Shown here one piece after another: positions 31,657 through 39,501 of a stretch of 40,865 nucleotides of DNA; positions within the stretch are counted from its first letter, which is position 1; every line of letters starts with the position of its first letter. The position numbers were made by a program, and so were the translations under genes. Under the pieces are notes generated by a model that was not told the DNA's origin, ran no database searches, and saw only the letters and a list, made by a program, of their open reading frames with translations. Source of the DNA: Methanotrichaceae archaeon (lineage in GTDB: Archaea; Halobacteriota; Methanosarcinia; Methanotrichales; Methanotrichaceae). Where the stretch lies: positions 1-40,865 of the forward strand of contig JAFGMR010000034.1 of the NCBI GenBank assembly GCA_016927425.1, written 5' to 3'.

Positions 31657-31787
31657 ATTGCGCTCCAAGGCGCAACGATACGCTATAGCTCTTTCCATCG
31701 AATGCCGGCGACCGGCGGCTTGGGCATATGCCGTGACCGAAGGCTATATGATGGGCTAAATCTCTTTTTGATGTGGAGGCTCAAGGG

Positions 31788-32618
31788 TTGCGGTCTATCA
31801 GGTGGGGGGCAGTGTTGCTCCTGCTATTGCTTATCATTCCTCAAGTCACCTCTGGCAGGTATTATCTCATGGACGAAGGCGATACCCACTGGACCACGGG
31901 AAGGCGGGATATAGTCAACACCTCGCTGACCATAGAGGGATTGTCATATGGCGACGGGAACTTCTCGAGGTATACCGAGATGGGATTTGCCGAGGTAGGG
32001 CTCAAGGAGAGGATCTCCGCGGTTAGAGGCACTCTTGATACTAGGGAGAGCGTCTCCATCAAGGCGGTCGACGATGCCGATCCCGTTGCCATTATCCAAA
32101 AGAGGTCCGGAAACCAGGATTACTATGTCGCAGTGAACGAGACCTGGCCCGTATCCATTAGCGCCGAGAGGGTGATCGACTACACCGGCCCTGGCATCAA
32201 CGAGAGAGAGGTCCTCTTCAACAACTACGACTGGGTGAGTTCCTCCTATCTGTATAATACCGACCTGAGGATGGACCGCTCCTGCAATATGAGGCTGAAC
32301 GACACATGGTTCCTCTTCGCCATGAATAATACGACCAAGACAATCCTCAGGGATTGGTTCTGGCCAAACAAGACCATGGAATATCGCCTTGAATCCCAAT
32401 CAGAGGGCCTCGCAACGCTCGCCCTTAGCATCTCAAAGGATAGGAGAAGGATATTCGAGAGGACCGACGACTACGCCGGCAATTACCAGCTCAGCCGCCG
32501 GCTCAACGTGGAAGGAAAGGGTAACGACACCACCGAGGAGGAACCCTGGCTCGAGTGTTGCCCGGGAGCCTTGACCCCGATCAAGGGCAGCCTTTGGACA
32601 TGCATATTCGAGGTGTGA
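31788..32618 (+). CDS. Exported protein rich in N-glycosylation sites
   Basis: A 276-aa protein with a signal peptide (WGAVLLLLLLIIPQVTSG, cleavage near residue 20) and no other membrane segment. At least seven N-x-S/T sequons are present (for example NTSL, NFSR, NETW, NDTW, NNTT, NKTM, NDTT), typical of archaeal surface glycoproteins. No known domain was recognised; beta-rich sequence dominates. TTG 31788 is chosen because GGAGG lies 8 nt upstream; GTG 31773 is possible as a leaderless start after the CTATATG element at 31744-31750. It heads a three-gene set, 4 nt before the next exported gene. Confidence 0.72.
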   Translation: MRSIRWGAVLLLLLLIIPQVTSGRYYLMDEGDTHWTTGRRDIVNTSLTIEGLSYGDGNFSRYTEMGFAEVGLKERISAVRGTLDTRESVSIKAVDDADPVAIIQKRSGNQDYYVAVNETWPVSISAERVIDYTGPGINEREVLFNNYDWVSSSYLYNTDLRMDRSCNMRLNDTWFLFAMNNTTKTILRDWFWPNKTMEYRLESQSEGLATLALSISKDRRRIFERTDDYAGNYQLSRRLNVEGKGNDTTEEEPWLECCPGALTPIKGSLWTCIFEV

Positions 32619-32622
32619 GAAG

Positions 32623-33843
32623 ATGAAGATGATCTCATTCTTGTTATTGTTCGTGCTCTGGACCAGCTGCTCATCCGGGATCTTGGTCCAGCAGATGCAG
32701 TACGACGACGGCCAGGCCGAGGACGGAATCATGCTGCCCTGGAACCTAGGCCATGCGGTGGTATTCACGCCGCCTGCAAAGAACTGGACACTGGAGAAGG
32801 TGGCAATCGTGGGCCTTATCGGCCAGAACGACGGTCCATTTGTCCTGGAGGTATGGGACCATAATCTCAATCTCCTCTGCCGCGAGACCGACATTGCGAG
32901 CGCCTACTTCAGCTCCAAGGCTGATTGGAAGACCGATTGGGCGGAGATCGATATCCCTGATACATCCATAGACGGCGATTTCATCGTCTGCCTCTTTGGC
33001 TCCTCCAGCTTTTTCCTTGGAGTCGACCTCACGGATCCAGCCTATAACCGCTCCTTCGTAGTCTCCAGGAGTCCAAATCGGTTCTCGACATGGAACCTTG
33101 GGATACCACAGAACGGCAGCGACTGGTCGATCAGAGTGCAGGGATATATCAGATCGACCGCCCCAAGCGTCGATCGGATCGAGAGGATTCCCGAGGGGAA
33201 GGGGGTCGCAGTAGATGCCAGGATCTCGGATATAGATGGAGATCTCACCAAGGCTTACCTTACAGTGATAGATAACGAGACCAAAGATATAGTCTGGATG
33301 GAGCAGGTGAGAGCAGAGGGGGCAGCGGACGTTGTCAGCTTCAAGTGGCCCGGCAAGACCTTTGGGATATCCAACAACACCGGGACGCTTCGTCCCATCT
33401 ATGCGACAAAGGCCCCCCTGGCTACCAACTACAGCCAGTTCATGGCCTTCCGCGCAAACTGCATGCTGATGTACTCGCCAACGGGGCCCAACCTGACCGC
33501 AATCGCCCACTTCAGCGATGATGGGACCTTCCACGCCATGACGAACTCTGCCGGAAATTTCTACTACATCTCCCAGGAGCTCTTCAAGGTCATCTCGCCG
33601 GAGGGATCCTACTCTGATTACATGAAGGAGAACCTAAGCATCAAGGAGAGGGAGAGCTCGCTTATATTCTATAGGCAGCTTGCCGATGGGAGGGTTGTCG
33701 CTCATCCGCCGATGAGGCTCGACAGATCACCCATCAATCATTACATGGTCCGGCTTGATATGGCCGATGCCAAGCCTGGCGATTATGTCGTGATCGTGAT
33801 GGCCGAGGATATCGCCGGTAATCAAGCTGCGGCATTGGGATGA
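32623..33843 (+). CDS. Exported beta-sandwich protein
   Basis: A 406-aa protein with a signal peptide ending near CSSG (residues 16-19), then a region (VQQMQYDDGQAEDGIMLPW ... VRVQGYI-like end) resembling a galactose-binding-like or jelly-roll beta sandwich, followed by a second beta-rich half (DIDGDLTKAYLTVIDNETKD) like a polysaccharide-associated domain. Several N-x-S/T sequons occur. The lone Cys near the signal peptide end could suggest a lipid anchor. Function is unknown. It lies 4 nt after one exported gene and 12 nt before the protease gene. Confidence 0.75.
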   Translation: MKMISFLLLFVLWTSCSSGILVQQMQYDDGQAEDGIMLPWNLGHAVVFTPPAKNWTLEKVAIVGLIGQNDGPFVLEVWDHNLNLLCRETDIASAYFSSKADWKTDWAEIDIPDTSIDGDFIVCLFGSSSFFLGVDLTDPAYNRSFVVSRSPNRFSTWNLGIPQNGSDWSIRVQGYIRSTAPSVDRIERIPEGKGVAVDARISDIDGDLTKAYLTVIDNETKDIVWMEQVRAEGAADVVSFKWPGKTFGISNNTGTLRPIYATKAPLATNYSQFMAFRANCMLMYSPTGPNLTAIAHFSDDGTFHAMTNSAGNFYYISQELFKVISPEGSYSDYMKENLSIKERESSLIFYRQLADGRVVAHPPMRLDRSPINHYMVRLDMADAKPGDYVVIVMAEDIAGNQAAALG

Positions 33844-33855
33844 AGGTGGATTAGG

Positions 33856-36261
33856 ATGAGTTGCGATTATCTTCGCGGATGGTTGCGAATCGCAATAGCC
33901 GTCTCATTGATGGGGGCGCTCGCCTGCCAGGCTGGGGCCTTCTCCCTTGGGTGTCAGTCAGGGGACGGAGAAGGATCGGTCTCGACTAGCGCGACGTTCG
34001 CCCTCGACAGCTCGACATCGGTGGTTCAAGAGACGGCGCTTGCGAGGGGAGGCATTGTACAAGAGCGCCTGCTCCATGGGCAGGCATTCAACTCCATCGT
34101 CGAGGTTGTGTCGGGAGAGGAGTACAGCCTGGAAAACGAGATCAGATCAATTGGAGCGCTCAGCGCCTATACATCTATGCAGGCGAGTGAGAACGAGGCC
34201 ACTCTCGGTCAGATGGTGGCAGGTTCCGGCGCGCTTGACCTGAGCATCGCTGCCACAAAGGACTCTGCCAAGGCAAGCCAGAGCGCCTGCGTAATCGATG
34301 GCGCCATCCTCTCCAGCCAGAGCCTGTTGGCCAGCGATTACATCGATCTTCGCCAGAGGACCTCGCTTGCAGGATCTGCCGGAGATATTGCCGCCACTGC
34401 CTCGTCCGCATCCAACGAGATGAGCGCGCGGGGAAGCTTCATCGGCCAATCGGTGATGAGCGCCGAGCTCTCCAGCATCGGAGGTGACAGGGCCATCCTT
34501 GGAGGCGAGGTATCGGTGGACGGCGCTCCCTGGCTCGATCAGTCCACGTTCGACCAGATCTACGATCAGGACATGGGCATCCTATTGCAGGGATTGACGG
34601 GGGACGATGGAGAGACCCAGTTCTCGATGGACGCCTCGAACTCCGAGATATCCTCAACCCTGCTTGCCCAAGGCGGATTGGCATCATCCTACGTGCTTAC
34701 AGGCTGGAGATGGAACACGGAAAATCCCCAGCTGAAGATGTATCTCCGAAACGACGAACTCTTAGCAAGCGAAGGGCTCACTGCTGAGGAGGCGGCGATG
34801 GCGATCTATCTCGCAGCGAACAGCTGGGATAACGTTATAAGCCAGGATATGTTCGACGACGAGGAGACCGTCACAATCGATCCCACGAAGGAGGCGGACG
34901 AGTACGACGGATTCAATGTGCACTCATGGATCTCGTTCTCCTATCCGTACAGCAGTGCGCTCGGCTACTGTCGCACATATTACAGCACATCGCTCATAGT
35001 TAACGGCTACAAGACAGCGCTCGAGAGCGATATCTGCTACAACACCAGGAAGGATTGGTCCACAAGCTGGCCTACGCCATCCGGGAAGTACGATATACAG
35101 AGCATCGCACTTCATGAGCTTGGGCATACTTTGGGCCTTGCGGACCTCTACCTCCTCCCGGACGACGATCCGGCGAAGAACGACTTCGAACAGATCATGA
35201 ACTCCTACGACGGGCCACAAAGGTATCTAGGAAACGGCGACATCGCTGGAGTACAGCTGCTCTACGGGGCTGTCGCCCTTCAGGAGGATCCTGTCTGGAC
35301 ATGCCTTGGAGGCTCGATAACCTCCGATCCGCATATGATCAGGGATGGGGACGGCACGATCCATATCTTCGCTCGAGGAAGCGATATGGCCCTCTACGAT
35401 AACGCAAACGGCGTCTGGTATTACATGGGCGGGTATCTCACATCCGATCCCTGGCCGGTGCTGGACGACGAAGGGCGTATACATGTCTTCGTGCGGGGAT
35501 TGGATGGCCCTCTCTGCGATAAAGTCGTCCTTGCCGATGGATCGCAGGAGGAATGGGCTATCCTCGGCGGATATCTGACGGAGGAGCCTAGCCCTGCATT
35601 CGATCCTATGGAGGGCGTGATGAGGATTGCCGTCCGGGGCACCGGGGATTCGCTCTGGCTTGGAGATCTCGATCCGATCGATATGGCGCTCCAGTGGAGC
35701 TATGCAGGGGGAGTCTTCGCATCGGCACCTCATCTGTTGATCGGCCAGACTGGCCAGGCGCACACGTTCGTCAGGGGATATGATATGGCTATGTATGAGA
35801 ACGTTGCAACCTGGGAAGATGGCGAGATCTCCTCCGAGTGGAGAAGCCTGGGCGGCCAGCTGACGGGAGAACCCGCTCCACTCCTCTCACAGGATGGTTA
35901 CATCCATGTCTACTCGCGAAGCATCGATGGAAGCCTGCAGGTGAGCACTATAGATCCAGATACCGGAGCTGCCAGCTGGCAGGATCTGGGCGGCCAGATC
36001 CCGCTTCCAGATGGCATCGCAAAAGGGGTCCCAGCCCCGATCGAGGACGAGGAGGGAGTGCTTCATGCCTTTGTCCTCGGCCTGAACTGGGCCCTATTCG
36101 ATAACCAGGGGGTTTGGGACCCGTCCTCGTCCAGTTACGAGGGCCAATGGGAGGGGATCGGCGGATACATCACCTCTGACATCGGCACGTTGATGGATGA
36201 AGGCGACCTGATCGTGGCGGTGAGGGGATCGACGGGCGCCCTTCATACGATCACCCTGTAG
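33856..36261 (+). CDS. Secreted HExxHxxGxxD metalloprotease fused to a seven-repeat beta-propeller
   Basis: An 801-aa exported protein. A signal peptide (to about residue 28) is followed by a Ser/Ala-rich region of about 260 residues, then a metzincin-like protease domain with zinc motif HELGHTLGLAD at residues 420-430 (H420, E421, H424, D430) and a Met-turn (IMNS, M448). From about residue 475, seven repeats of about 45 residues each begin W-x-x-(L/M/I/A)GG and contain (F/V)xRGxDxxL, the pattern of PLL-type seven-bladed lectin propellers. The protease probably acts at the cell surface on glycosylated targets bound by the propeller. AAGGTGGA precedes ATG 33856. It is last of three exported genes; a strong hairpin follows. 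Confidence 0.85.
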   Translation: MSCDYLRGWLRIAIAVSLMGALACQAGAFSLGCQSGDGEGSVSTSATFALDSSTSVVQETALARGGIVQERLLHGQAFNSIVEVVSGEEYSLENEIRSIGALSAYTSMQASENEATLGQMVAGSGALDLSIAATKDSAKASQSACVIDGAILSSQSLLASDYIDLRQRTSLAGSAGDIAATASSASNEMSARGSFIGQSVMSAELSSIGGDRAILGGEVSVDGAPWLDQSTFDQIYDQDMGILLQGLTGDDGETQFSMDASNSEISSTLLAQGGLASSYVLTGWRWNTENPQLKMYLRNDELLASEGLTAEEAAMAIYLAANSWDNVISQDMFDDEETVTIDPTKEADEYDGFNVHSWISFSYPYSSALGYCRTYYSTSLIVNGYKTALESDICYNTRKDWSTSWPTPSGKYDIQSIALHELGHTLGLADLYLLPDDDPAKNDFEQIMNSYDGPQRYLGNGDIAGVQLLYGAVALQEDPVWTCLGGSITSDPHMIRDGDGTIHIFARGSDMALYDNANGVWYYMGGYLTSDPWPVLDDEGRIHVFVRGLDGPLCDKVVLADGSQEEWAILGGYLTEEPSPAFDPMEGVMRIAVRGTGDSLWLGDLDPIDMALQWSYAGGVFASAPHLLIGQTGQAHTFVRGYDMAMYENVATWEDGEISSEWRSLGGQLTGEPAPLLSQDGYIHVYSRSIDGSLQVSTIDPDTGAASWQDLGGQIPLPDGIAKGVPAPIEDEEGVLHAFVLGLNWALFDNQGVWDPSSSSYEGQWEGIGGYITSDIGTLMDEGDLIVAVRGSTGALHTITL

Positions 36262-36632: not shown

Positions 36633-36672
36633 CAAGATAATGTTATTATTACAGATTTCTGGAGGTTGGCCA

Positions 36673-37353
36673 TTGGCATCGAAATACAACTGGGCCGGGG
36701 ATTCCATACTCCGGGATACCATCATGTGGAACAAGAGGGGGGTCTTGGGCTACTCCAACGTATACATCCCCACCGATATCAGAGAATGGATCTCCCCCCT
36801 TGAAAGCGAGGTCATCAAGAGGGCTCTCCAGGAGATCGACCTCCCCACCGCCCGAGAGGTGGGGACGTTCGACGCCCGGGCCTGGAAGATATGGAAGTTC
36901 GTTGCCGAATCGGTCCAGTACATCACGGACGACGATGCCATCGGCTGGCCTGACTTCTGGTTCTTCCCGCCGGAGACGCTCACCCTCAGGAAGGGGGATT
37001 GCGAGGACTCGTCCTTCCTCCTTGGAACGATGCTACTTGCAAGCGGCATAAGCGAGCATTGCGTCAGGGTAGTACTAGGAAAGGTTAGCACGGATGGCGG
37101 ATCTTTCGGCCATGCCTGGGTAGTCTACCAGAACGAGGAGGGAACATGGTGCCTCCTCGAGAGCACGCTCGACGAGGTTCCCGAGAGGCTAGCCAATGCC
37201 GATCCTTTTGTTGTGGAGGGCACAAGGAACCAGTACGAGCCGTTATTCTGCTTGAACCGGTCCCATCTCTGGGCGATCTCTCCCACCCAGATGCAGCTCT
37301 CTGAGTATGTGAGCATGCGGGAGGCCCGGGGCAGCTGGCGCCCTCCTGTCTAG
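36673..37353 (+). CDS. Transglutaminase-like cysteine protease-fold protein
   Basis: A 226-aa cytoplasmic protein with a papain/transglutaminase-like triad: Cys in RKGDCEDSSFLLGTML, His in GGSFGHAWVVYQNEEG and an acidic residue in LLESTLDEVP. No signal peptide is seen. The family includes bacterial transglutaminase-like cysteine proteases, but the substrate is unknown. TTG 36673 is chosen because GGAGGT ends 6 nt upstream; an ATG at 36640 is too near the TATA box and would add 11 unlike residues. The gene stands alone between the exported cassette and the NFACT gene. Confidence 0.75.
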   Translation: MASKYNWAGDSILRDTIMWNKRGVLGYSNVYIPTDIREWISPLESEVIKRALQEIDLPTAREVGTFDARAWKIWKFVAESVQYITDDDAIGWPDFWFFPPETLTLRKGDCEDSSFLLGTMLLASGISEHCVRVVLGKVSTDGGSFGHAWVVYQNEEGTWCLLESTLDEVPERLANADPFVVEGTRNQYEPLFCLNRSHLWAISPTQMQLSEYVSMREARGSWRPPV

Positions 37354-37557: not shown

Positions 37558-37581
37558 CCGTTGAGATTTTGAGGTGTGTGC

Positions 37582-39501
37582 ATGAAGCGGGCGATGAGCA
37601 ACGTGGATGTGGCAGCTGTGACGGAGGAGCTGCAGGCGCTTGTTGGGGCCTTTGTGGGGAAGGCCTATCAGATCTCCTCCGACATGATCCGGCTGACCCT
37701 CCAGGCTCCAGGCATTGGAAAGGCGGAGCTGCTCATGGAGGCTGGCCGAAGGGTGCATCTGACGGAGAGGGGACGAGAGGCATCACGCACGCCGCCCCAG
37801 TTCCCTGTCGTCCTCAGGAGTCACCTCTCCGGCGGGAGGATCGCCTCGATTCAACAGCATGAGCTCGACCGGGTGATGGAGATCGCAGTCGAGCGGGCAG
37901 GAGAGCGCCGAGTGCTCATCGTTGAGCTATTTCCAAAGGGGGATATCGCCCTCCTCGACGGGGACGGGAGGATAATCCTGCCCTTGCGGCCGATGGTAGG
38001 CGGCGGAAGGAGGATGCTCTCAGGCGAGCCTTACGTCTACCATGAAGGGCAAATCGACCCGCGCTACGTCTCGCACGATGAGCTTTCCAAGATCCTCGAA
38101 TCGACCGATGCCGAGCTCGTAAGGGCGCTTGCCCGAAACCTGAACATGGGCGGTGTCTATGGCGAGGAGGTCTGCCTGAGAGCCGAGGTCGAGAAGACGA
38201 GGCCTGCTTCCGGGCTCGACGATGAGGAGGTCGGACGCGTCCATGCCGCCCTCGGGGAGGTATTTCAACCCAAGGAGATCAAGCCCGAGATCGTCTACGA
38301 GGGAGAAGCTCCTCTGGACGTTGTCCCATCCCCCCTAATGATCTATAAGGGCCAAAGGAGACAGCAGTTCGAGAGCCTCAGCCAGGCGCTCGACCAGTTC
38401 TTCGTCGAGAAGGTTGAGAAGCCCAAAGCCTCCCCGATCGACCGGAGGCTCGAGATCCAGAAAAGGGCGATCGAAGAGTTTGAGGTGTTGGAGAAAGAGA
38501 GCGTCCGGGCCGGGGAGTTCATCTACGAGCACTACCCTGAGATCGAGGCGCTCCTCGCCACATTGAAAGCGGCCAGGGATAAGGGGCTCAGCTACACAGA
38601 GATATGGGAGAGGATCAGGGAATCGAACCTCCCCCAGGCAAAGGCGATAAGCTCCATGGACTACAAAGGCGAGGTCCACCTAGTGCTCGATTCGCAGGAG
38701 CTCGATATCTCTGCAGAGCTGAGCGTTCCCCAGAACGCCCAGCGTTACTACGACAAGGCAAAGGAGATGCTCCGAAAGAGGGAAGGGGCAAAGGCCGCCC
38801 TCGAGACCACCCTCAAGCTGAAGGAGGGAGGGGCTACCCCCGCTAGGCGCAGGTCTGATCCACAGAGGAGGAGGAAGAGGAAGGCCAGGTGGTACGAGCG
38901 GTTCCGCTGGTTCAACTCATCGGACGGCTTCCTCGTCATCGGCGGGAGGGATTCCGACGGAAACGAGGAGATCTTTGCGAAGTACCTCGAAAAGAGGGAT
39001 CTTGCGCTTCACACAGACGCTCCCGGAGCGCCGCTGACAGTGATCAAGGCCGGGGGAGAGGAGGTTCCCGAGTCCACCATCTTGGAAGCTGCCCAGTTCG
39101 CTGTTAGCTACAGCACCCTATGGAAGGGGGGGCTTGCTGCCGGCGACTGCTACTTAGTAGGCGGTGACCAGGTGACGAAGACCCCTGAATCCGGCGAGTT
39201 CCTGAGGAAGGGCGCTTTCGTCATAAGGGGCGAGCGGCGATACCTTCGAGACGTGCCCCTGGGAATTGCCGTCGGAATTGCAGACGATATGCTGATAGGA
39301 GGGCCGACGTCTGCCATCAGGGGGCGGGCTGACCCCGTCGTCGAGGTCGAGCCTGGCGAGTACAACGCAGACGACCTCGCAAAGAGGATATATCGAGCCT
39401 GGGGGGAGAAGTTCAAGGACCGCCGCGAGCTTAAAGCCCTCGCCCCCGTGGATGGAATCGTCTCCTTCCTTCCGCCCGGGGGGTCGAGGGAGAAAGGGTG
39501 A
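37582..39501 (+). CDS. rqcH: NFACT-family ribosome rescue protein (RqcH/Rqc2 homologue)
   Basis: A 639-aa protein that binds the large ribosomal subunit with a stalled peptidyl-tRNA and, in characterised homologues, recruits tRNA-Ala to add C-terminal alanine tails. The order is as expected: NFACT-N (MSNVDVAAVTEELQALVGAF ... PPQFPVVLRSHLSGGRI), helix-hairpin-helix, coiled coils (RRLEIQKRAIEEFEVLEKES; YYDKAKEMLRKREGAKAALE), a basic linker and NFACT-R (WYERFRWFNSSDGFLVIGGRD). ATG 37582 is chosen with GAGGTG 5 nt upstream. The C-terminus ends in a Pro/Gly tail without the NFACT-C domain of eukaryotes. Confidence 0.93.
   Translation: MKRAMSNVDVAAVTEELQALVGAFVGKAYQISSDMIRLTLQAPGIGKAELLMEAGRRVHLTERGREASRTPPQFPVVLRSHLSGGRIASIQQHELDRVMEIAVERAGERRVLIVELFPKGDIALLDGDGRIILPLRPMVGGGRRMLSGEPYVYHEGQIDPRYVSHDELSKILESTDAELVRALARNLNMGGVYGEEVCLRAEVEKTRPASGLDDEEVGRVHAALGEVFQPKEIKPEIVYEGEAPLDVVPSPLMIYKGQRRQQFESLSQALDQFFVEKVEKPKASPIDRRLEIQKRAIEEFEVLEKESVRAGEFIYEHYPEIEALLATLKAARDKGLSYTEIWERIRESNLPQAKAISSMDYKGEVHLVLDSQELDISAELSVPQNAQRYYDKAKEMLRKREGAKAALETTLKLKEGGATPARRRSDPQRRRKRKARWYERFRWFNSSDGFLVIGGRDSDGNEEIFAKYLEKRDLALHTDAPGAPLTVIKAGGEEVPESTILEAAQFAVSYSTLWKGGLAAGDCYLVGGDQVTKTPESGEFLRKGAFVIRGERRYLRDVPLGIAVGIADDMLIGGPTSAIRGRADPVVEVEPGEYNADDLAKRIYRAWGEKFKDRRELKALAPVDGIVSFLPPGGSREKG

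Follow-up and report, generated by a model that had tools for sequence, protein, structure and literature searches.

Background

The sheath of Methanothrix is the site at which partner cells attach. The genus has been described as a major source of methane emissions worldwide (PMC10470525). Such sheaths, in Methanothrix and Methanospirillum, contain the SH proteins (PMC11576556, PMC10593813), whose core consists of six beta-arches (PMC10593813) and forms an extremely resistant amyloid-like structure (PMC11576556). In Methanothrix thermoacetophila Mthe_0668 and Mthe_0667 are the two most transcribed SH proteins, Mthe_0668 being the highest (PMC11576556). The route by which new hoops enter an archaeal sheath and the other participating proteins are described as unknown, and genomic context gave no candidates for sheath assembly (PMC11576556). 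Proteases appear in that 2024 survey only as hypothetical means of viral egress (PMC11576556), and our search of the open-access literature found none that describes a sheath protease in Methanothrix. Archaeal matrix metalloproteinases (MMPs) have been treated mainly for Methanosarcinaceae (PMC12587646).

The window analysed here is a stretch of 40,865 nucleotides from a filament-forming methanogen of the Methanotrichaceae (GenBank assembly GCA_016927425.1, contig JAFGMR010000034.1). An earlier note, made from the sequence alone, drew attention to three adjacent genes in it, the last of which encodes a predicted protease with a lectin-type tail. Our analysis goes beyond that note in two respects: the protease belongs to a family-wide scaffold of N-terminal domain (NTD) and peptidase with changing tails, and gene 1 groups by sequence with the SH proteins.

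The three-gene locus

All three genes lie on the + strand, between 31788 and 36261. Gene 1 (P0001, 31788-32618, 276 aa) begins with a TTG codon, 8 nt downstream of a GGAGG (31775-31779, + strand) that is its likely ribosome-binding site. Gene 2 (P0002, 32623-33843, 406 aa) follows after 4 nt, and gene 3 (P0003, 33856-36261, 801 aa) after a further 12 nt. Each of the products starts with a hydrophobic, signal-like segment (in gene 3 aa 1-28, 33856-33939), from which export of all three is predicted. The earlier note had described three exported open reading frames with these gaps, the first two rich in N-glycosylation sites, and we agree on both points. Gene 1 and gene 2 each encode 8 NxS/T sequons against a shuffled mean of 2.4 each; as many as 8 were reached in 0 of 500 shuffles for gene 1 and 1 of 500 for gene 2. 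The protease has 0 sequons, against a shuffled mean of 3.3. This contrast of 8, 8 and 0 would be compatible with a lectin-bearing enzyme among glycosylated partners, but it is no proof of one.

The upstream neighbour is an ABC-transporter ATPase gene in divergent orientation. Downstream, the gene for a transglutaminase-like protein (36640-37353), in which no signal peptide is obvious, begins 378 nt past gene 3. A stem-loop 3' of gene 3 was considered as a terminator and is unconvincing.

The catalytic domain and the propeller of gene 3

The catalytic domain occupies aa 276-473 (34681-35274). It contains the zinc-binding motif HELGHTLGLAD (aa 420-430, 35113-35145) with the catalytic Glu421, and the H, E, H, G and D of this motif are invariant in 30 of 30 aligned family sequences. 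The methionine of the Met-turn, Met448 (35197-35199), lies inside IMNSY and is kept in at least 90% of the same sequences. The third zinc ligand is Asp, where His is usual in matrixins. Against Pfam M10 (PF00413) the protein scores 22.3 bits, just below the cut-off of 24, and its relatives 22.9-38.4 bits, some of them above it. Positions 294-487 of the family profile match the whole catalytic domain of karilysin (2xs4, E 1.4e-7), and MMP-14 is matched as well (E 4.8e-6).

An AF2 model of aa 29-474, built from the 30-sequence alignment, reached a pLDDT of 91.8 and a pTM of 0.88; a single-sequence model of the whole protease, with a pLDDT of only 31.6, is unusable. In Foldseek the former matches viral MMPs (probability 1.00, E from 1.9e-5) and the venom metalloproteinase 4j4m (probability 0.99, E 0.009), the weak E-values against PDB entries being perhaps caused by the NTD, which is half of the model. 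The tree places the domain in a cluster of 26 sequences from Methanotrichaceae (support 97/75), and the bacterial ones fall outside it. Profile, alignment and model together identify a matrixin-like metzincin, for which zinc-dependent activity is predicted. The 801-aa protease with HExxHxxGxxD and a Met-turn proposed in the earlier note is hence well founded, being conserved across the family and matching metzincins in the predicted structure.

The rest of the protein, aa 475-801 (35278-36258), is predicted to form a seven-bladed PLL-type lectin propeller with sugar-binding ability. There are, as previously counted, exactly seven W-x-x-x-GG motifs (aa 481, 521, 567, 614, 662, 708 and 765), and 20,000 shuffles of the region never gave more than 3. 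A phmmer search with aa 475-801 finds the solved Photorhabdus lectin PLL2 (6rfz) with E 2.1e-46, and PLL, PLL3 and PHL with E 1e-23 to 1e-31. The assignment is based on homology to these solved lectins, since the mixed alignment A2 put propellers onto the peptidase and was therefore discarded; the AF2 model spans aa 29-474 only.

PLL modules are rare in the phylum (5 of 394 genomes sampled, a sample that missed some PLL-bearing relatives, e.g. G036), although the window genome has about a dozen further PLL loci. These (L049-L059) lie on contigs C7, C9, C16, C18, C28, C33, C42, C48, C59, C60 and C90, and PLL is combined there with NTD, beta-helix/NosD, a papain-type peptidase (the C1 protease of L053) and exported domains without assignment. 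Another Methanothrix genome, G071, encodes a gingipain-like peptidase C25 with a propeptide, fused to a PLL propeller (L270:38-3235).

A scaffold with changing tails

The combination of NTD and M10 peptidase is found across Methanotrichaceae at 27-47% identity to the window protein. What varies is the C-terminal module: PLL, a ricin-type lectin (G012, 2e-53), DUF5648 (G024, 3e-36; G007, 6e-33; similar repeats in G016), FG-GAP (G035), or none. Among the family genomes searched, NTD, M10 and PLL occur in one chain only in the window. Two genomes, G036 and G071, have a protease gene that shares 52 nt with an overlapping NTD+PLL gene (L077:6891-10498 and L270:3669-7228), and such a pair is the split, two-gene counterpart of the window fusion. 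The earlier note knew of no description of such a fusion of a protease with a PLL-like propeller in a methanogen. The one-chain PLL version is indeed confined to the window among the family genomes searched, but its design is not unique to this locus: the lectin is one of several tails carried by an NTD-matrixin scaffold that is found across Methanotrichaceae.

A scan of named genomes with the protein alone gave zero matches. In the alignment-based scan the full-length relatives, among the matches listed, all belong to Methanothrix or Methanotrichaceae. No match to the NTD-protease profile was found in 15 of 50 family genomes, several of them incomplete, and others have the NTD only; the possession of a sheath thus does not require the protease. 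A virus-borne version was also considered and rejected, as the peptidase matches in 4 viral contigs were weak and none spanned the NTD.

The NTD itself (aa 29-264, 33940-34647) is predicted with confidence in the above model as a domain of long antiparallel beta strands: some short strands come first, and five that are each 21-23 residues long follow. Glycines conserved at model positions 47, 72, 97, 121, 145 and 169 mark a period of about 24. In the autocorrelation of the NTD, lag 37 gives 0.26 and lag 24 gives 0.25, with the permutation 99% level at about 0.25. Our hypothesis is that these six units, each about 24 residues long and marked by a glycine, may resemble, in kind, the six beta-arches of the SH core. 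Homology of the NTD to SH proteins is unsupported, the profile-profile comparison giving 0.1-0.4% and no detectable sequence similarity, and a Foldseek search with the model of aa 29-474 returned no credible structural match for the NTD. Relationship to MspA or Mthe_1070 was rejected as well, scores being equal to those of shuffled controls. Nor is the NTD a cysteine-switch propeptide: its cysteine is not conserved, and it also occurs without a peptidase.

Genes 1 and 2

Profile-profile comparison makes gene 1 a divergent SH-superfamily protein, homologous to the Mthe_0668 branch. The gene-1 family matches a wider SH set at 98.2% (E 5.9e-14, over 218 columns), which is not a fully independent test because the set, although full-length gene-1 members were excluded, was partly gathered with the gene-1 profile; the proteins first found in that way are near-full-length matches to the Mthe_0668 profile. 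The same set compared with the NTD, gene-2, PLL and M10 families gives 0.1-0.8%. The independent test is the comparison with the Mthe_0668 family alone, which gives 92.7% (E 4.4e-7), at the C terminus. Sequence divergence is too great for the Mthe_0667 branch to be linked with either the gene-1 or the Mthe_0668 family. Mthe_0668 was placed in genome G016 by inference, exactly eight genes lying between the ORF taken as Mthe_0668 and an S-layer-type ORF taken as Mthe_0677. We infer that G016 is M. thermoacetophila PT; an ORF in it has a predicted mass of 60.95 kDa, agreeing with the 60.9 kDa of MspA, Mthe_1069 (PMC6242892, PMC10470525). SH proteins were found in all 37 Methanotrichaceae genomes searched (window genome included) and in 0 of 24 genomes from the rest of the class.

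Gene 2 is present in 36 of 61 genomes, all of them Methanotrichaceae, with some matches spanning the N-terminal domain only, and it often stands immediately 3' of gene 1 across the family. No known domain was recognised in it by the domain search. On this distribution it is, as far as sequence tells, a conserved partner of gene 1 confined to Methanotrichaceae. The gene 1-2 pair occurs in many genomes without the protease. The suggestion that the first two genes are partners of the protease can accordingly be kept in part. They are adjacent to it, and genes 1-2-3 stand in identical order in G006. They are not, however, ad hoc companions, gene 1 being of SH type and gene 2 its own conserved partner.

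Neighbourhood in other genomes

Throughout the family, SH-like, gene-2 and NTD genes are found close to one another. Six genomes have an SH-like gene at most 5 kb away from an NTD-protease gene, namely that of the window, G006, G034, G024, G018 (where the two are divergent) and G010. With the window excluded, 5 genomes were observed against 0.37 expected (Poisson P 4e-5, to be taken as a guide only, given that the hit counts were read by hand, the 5-kb radius was chosen post hoc and related genomes are not independent). In G026, G012, G009, G014, G007, G010, G028 and G021, SH-like genes directly adjoin genes for long exported proteins that lack a peptidase; most of these proteins bear NTD-type sequence according to the search (G021 by sequence reading only). 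Many NTD-protease genes, that of M. thermoacetophila included, are not beside an SH-like gene.

Several individual loci may be mentioned. In G026, NTD-repeat proteins alternate with SH-like gene-1 homologues for three rounds (L260:6613-17077). In G007, a gene-1 homologue is preceded, at a distance of 9 nt, by the gene for an exported protein of 3028 aa with no Pfam domain (L265:3739-12825). M. thermoacetophila PT (G016) has an NTD-protease with YRMY...DHFYTT (DUF5648-like) repeats at L067:8189-10186 and the gene 1-2 pair elsewhere, at L152:7991-10155. An NFACT (RqcH-like) gene is found near the NTD-protease gene both in the window (37576-39501) and in G010 (L278:4233-6176), possibly as shared synteny.

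Proposed role and alternatives

We tentatively propose, giving it somewhat less than an even chance, that gene 3 encodes a matrixin held at the surface and acting on the glycoproteins there, its most likely target being proteins of the sheath or associated with it. Gene 3 would be secreted and retained at the outer cell surface, where the beta-arch-like NTD and the lectin propeller would anchor it on the sheath or on surface glycoproteins, so that it could cut surface proteins locally. Occasions for cutting might be, for example, the addition of sheath hoops, the splitting of filaments or the maturation of sheath-associated proteins. The products of genes 1 and 2, predicted to be N-glycosylated, could serve as glycan ligands of the propeller, as co-assembly partners or as substrates. 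Because an SH relative is encoded next to a predicted secreted, lectin-bearing zinc protease, we regard the NTD-protease family as a good candidate for an enzyme that remodels the sheath, its activity being putative. The earlier note considered remodelling of sheath or S-layer plausible, and the sheath part of that idea is now backed by the SH homology of gene 1. Cleavage of the sheath by gene 3 would more easily concern caps, plugs or S-layer than the SH core, given the resistance of the latter.

Alternatively, the protein could be a secreted scavenging or aggregate-matrix protease, whose lectin binds granule polysaccharide or partner bacteria and which breaks down foreign or matrix protein; the SH neighbour would then be relevant only as a surface anchor. 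The carbohydrate-binding or adhesion tails are indeed interchangeable, PLL is attached to other exported proteases (C1 in the same genome, C25-type in a relative), and the abundance of PLL loci in the window genome against their rarity in the phylum fits such a use. Yet lectin-less NTD-proteases are common in the family, and the gene that recurs beside them is of SH type, not one for transport or catabolism. We consider this explanation somewhat unlikely.

A stronger version of our proposal makes the NTD-matrixin family the dedicated sheath protease of Methanotrichaceae: the NTD would insert into or cap SH rings via an SH-like beta-arch core, the lectins would read sheath glycans, and the enzyme would open the amyloid-like sheath so that hoops can be inserted or filaments can split. 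This is unlikely to be right in full; if true, it would link a protease to an archaeal sheath for the first time.

The chances are lower still that the enzyme merely processes the products of its own operon or the NTD family, trimming gene 1, gene 2 or NTD proteins for assembly. The three genes do look like a single operon, with the order kept in G006, and the NTD is common to large non-peptidase proteins adjoining SH-like genes, but in many genomes the gene 1-2 pair and NTD proteins have no peptidase next to them. Finally, that gene 3 is mainly a structural or adhesive surface protein with a peptidase of minor importance is very improbable, since neither the zinc ligands nor the catalytic Glu vary, and the Met-turn hardly does, at such low overall identity, even though peptidase-less NTD+PLL proteins exist in the same genome (L049, L050, L058).

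The sheath-remodelling proposal thus offers what has been missing, a concrete and testable candidate: a protease family specific to the sheathed Methanotrichaceae and repeatedly found beside an SH-type gene. It can be tested in a cultured species, because M. thermoacetophila PT carries both an NTD-protease and the gene 1-2 pair.

Comparison with known systems

Among the SH sheath proteins of Methanothrix and Methanospirillum, gene 1 is homologous to the Mthe_0668 branch, though diverged; the studies of these sheaths reported no host protease as a component (PMC11576556, PMC10593813). MspA (Mthe_1069, earlier given the name of major sheath protein) resembles the NTD in general style, both being exported beta proteins rich in Ser, Ala and Gly, but there is no sequence relation between them and MspA is rare in Methanotrichaceae.

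With the matrixins (MEROPS M10A; karilysin, MMPs) gene 3 shares HExxHxxGxx(H/D), the Met-turn and a C-terminal D-x-x-G-x-x-x-L-Y-G segment. It differs from them in its Asp as third ligand and in the absence of a cysteine-switch propeptide, in whose place it has the NTD, and from MMPs in carrying a PLL propeller where these carry hemopexin. The MMP genes of Methanosarcinaceae (PMC12587646) are likewise M10 genes in methanogens; that sister family gave just weak matches here, the NTD scaffold being found only in Methanotrichaceae. The propeller, finally, has the seven W-motif blades of the PLL / PHL 'bangle' lectins of Photorhabdus (DUF346-type repeats), but here it is the tail of a protease, and in an archaeon.
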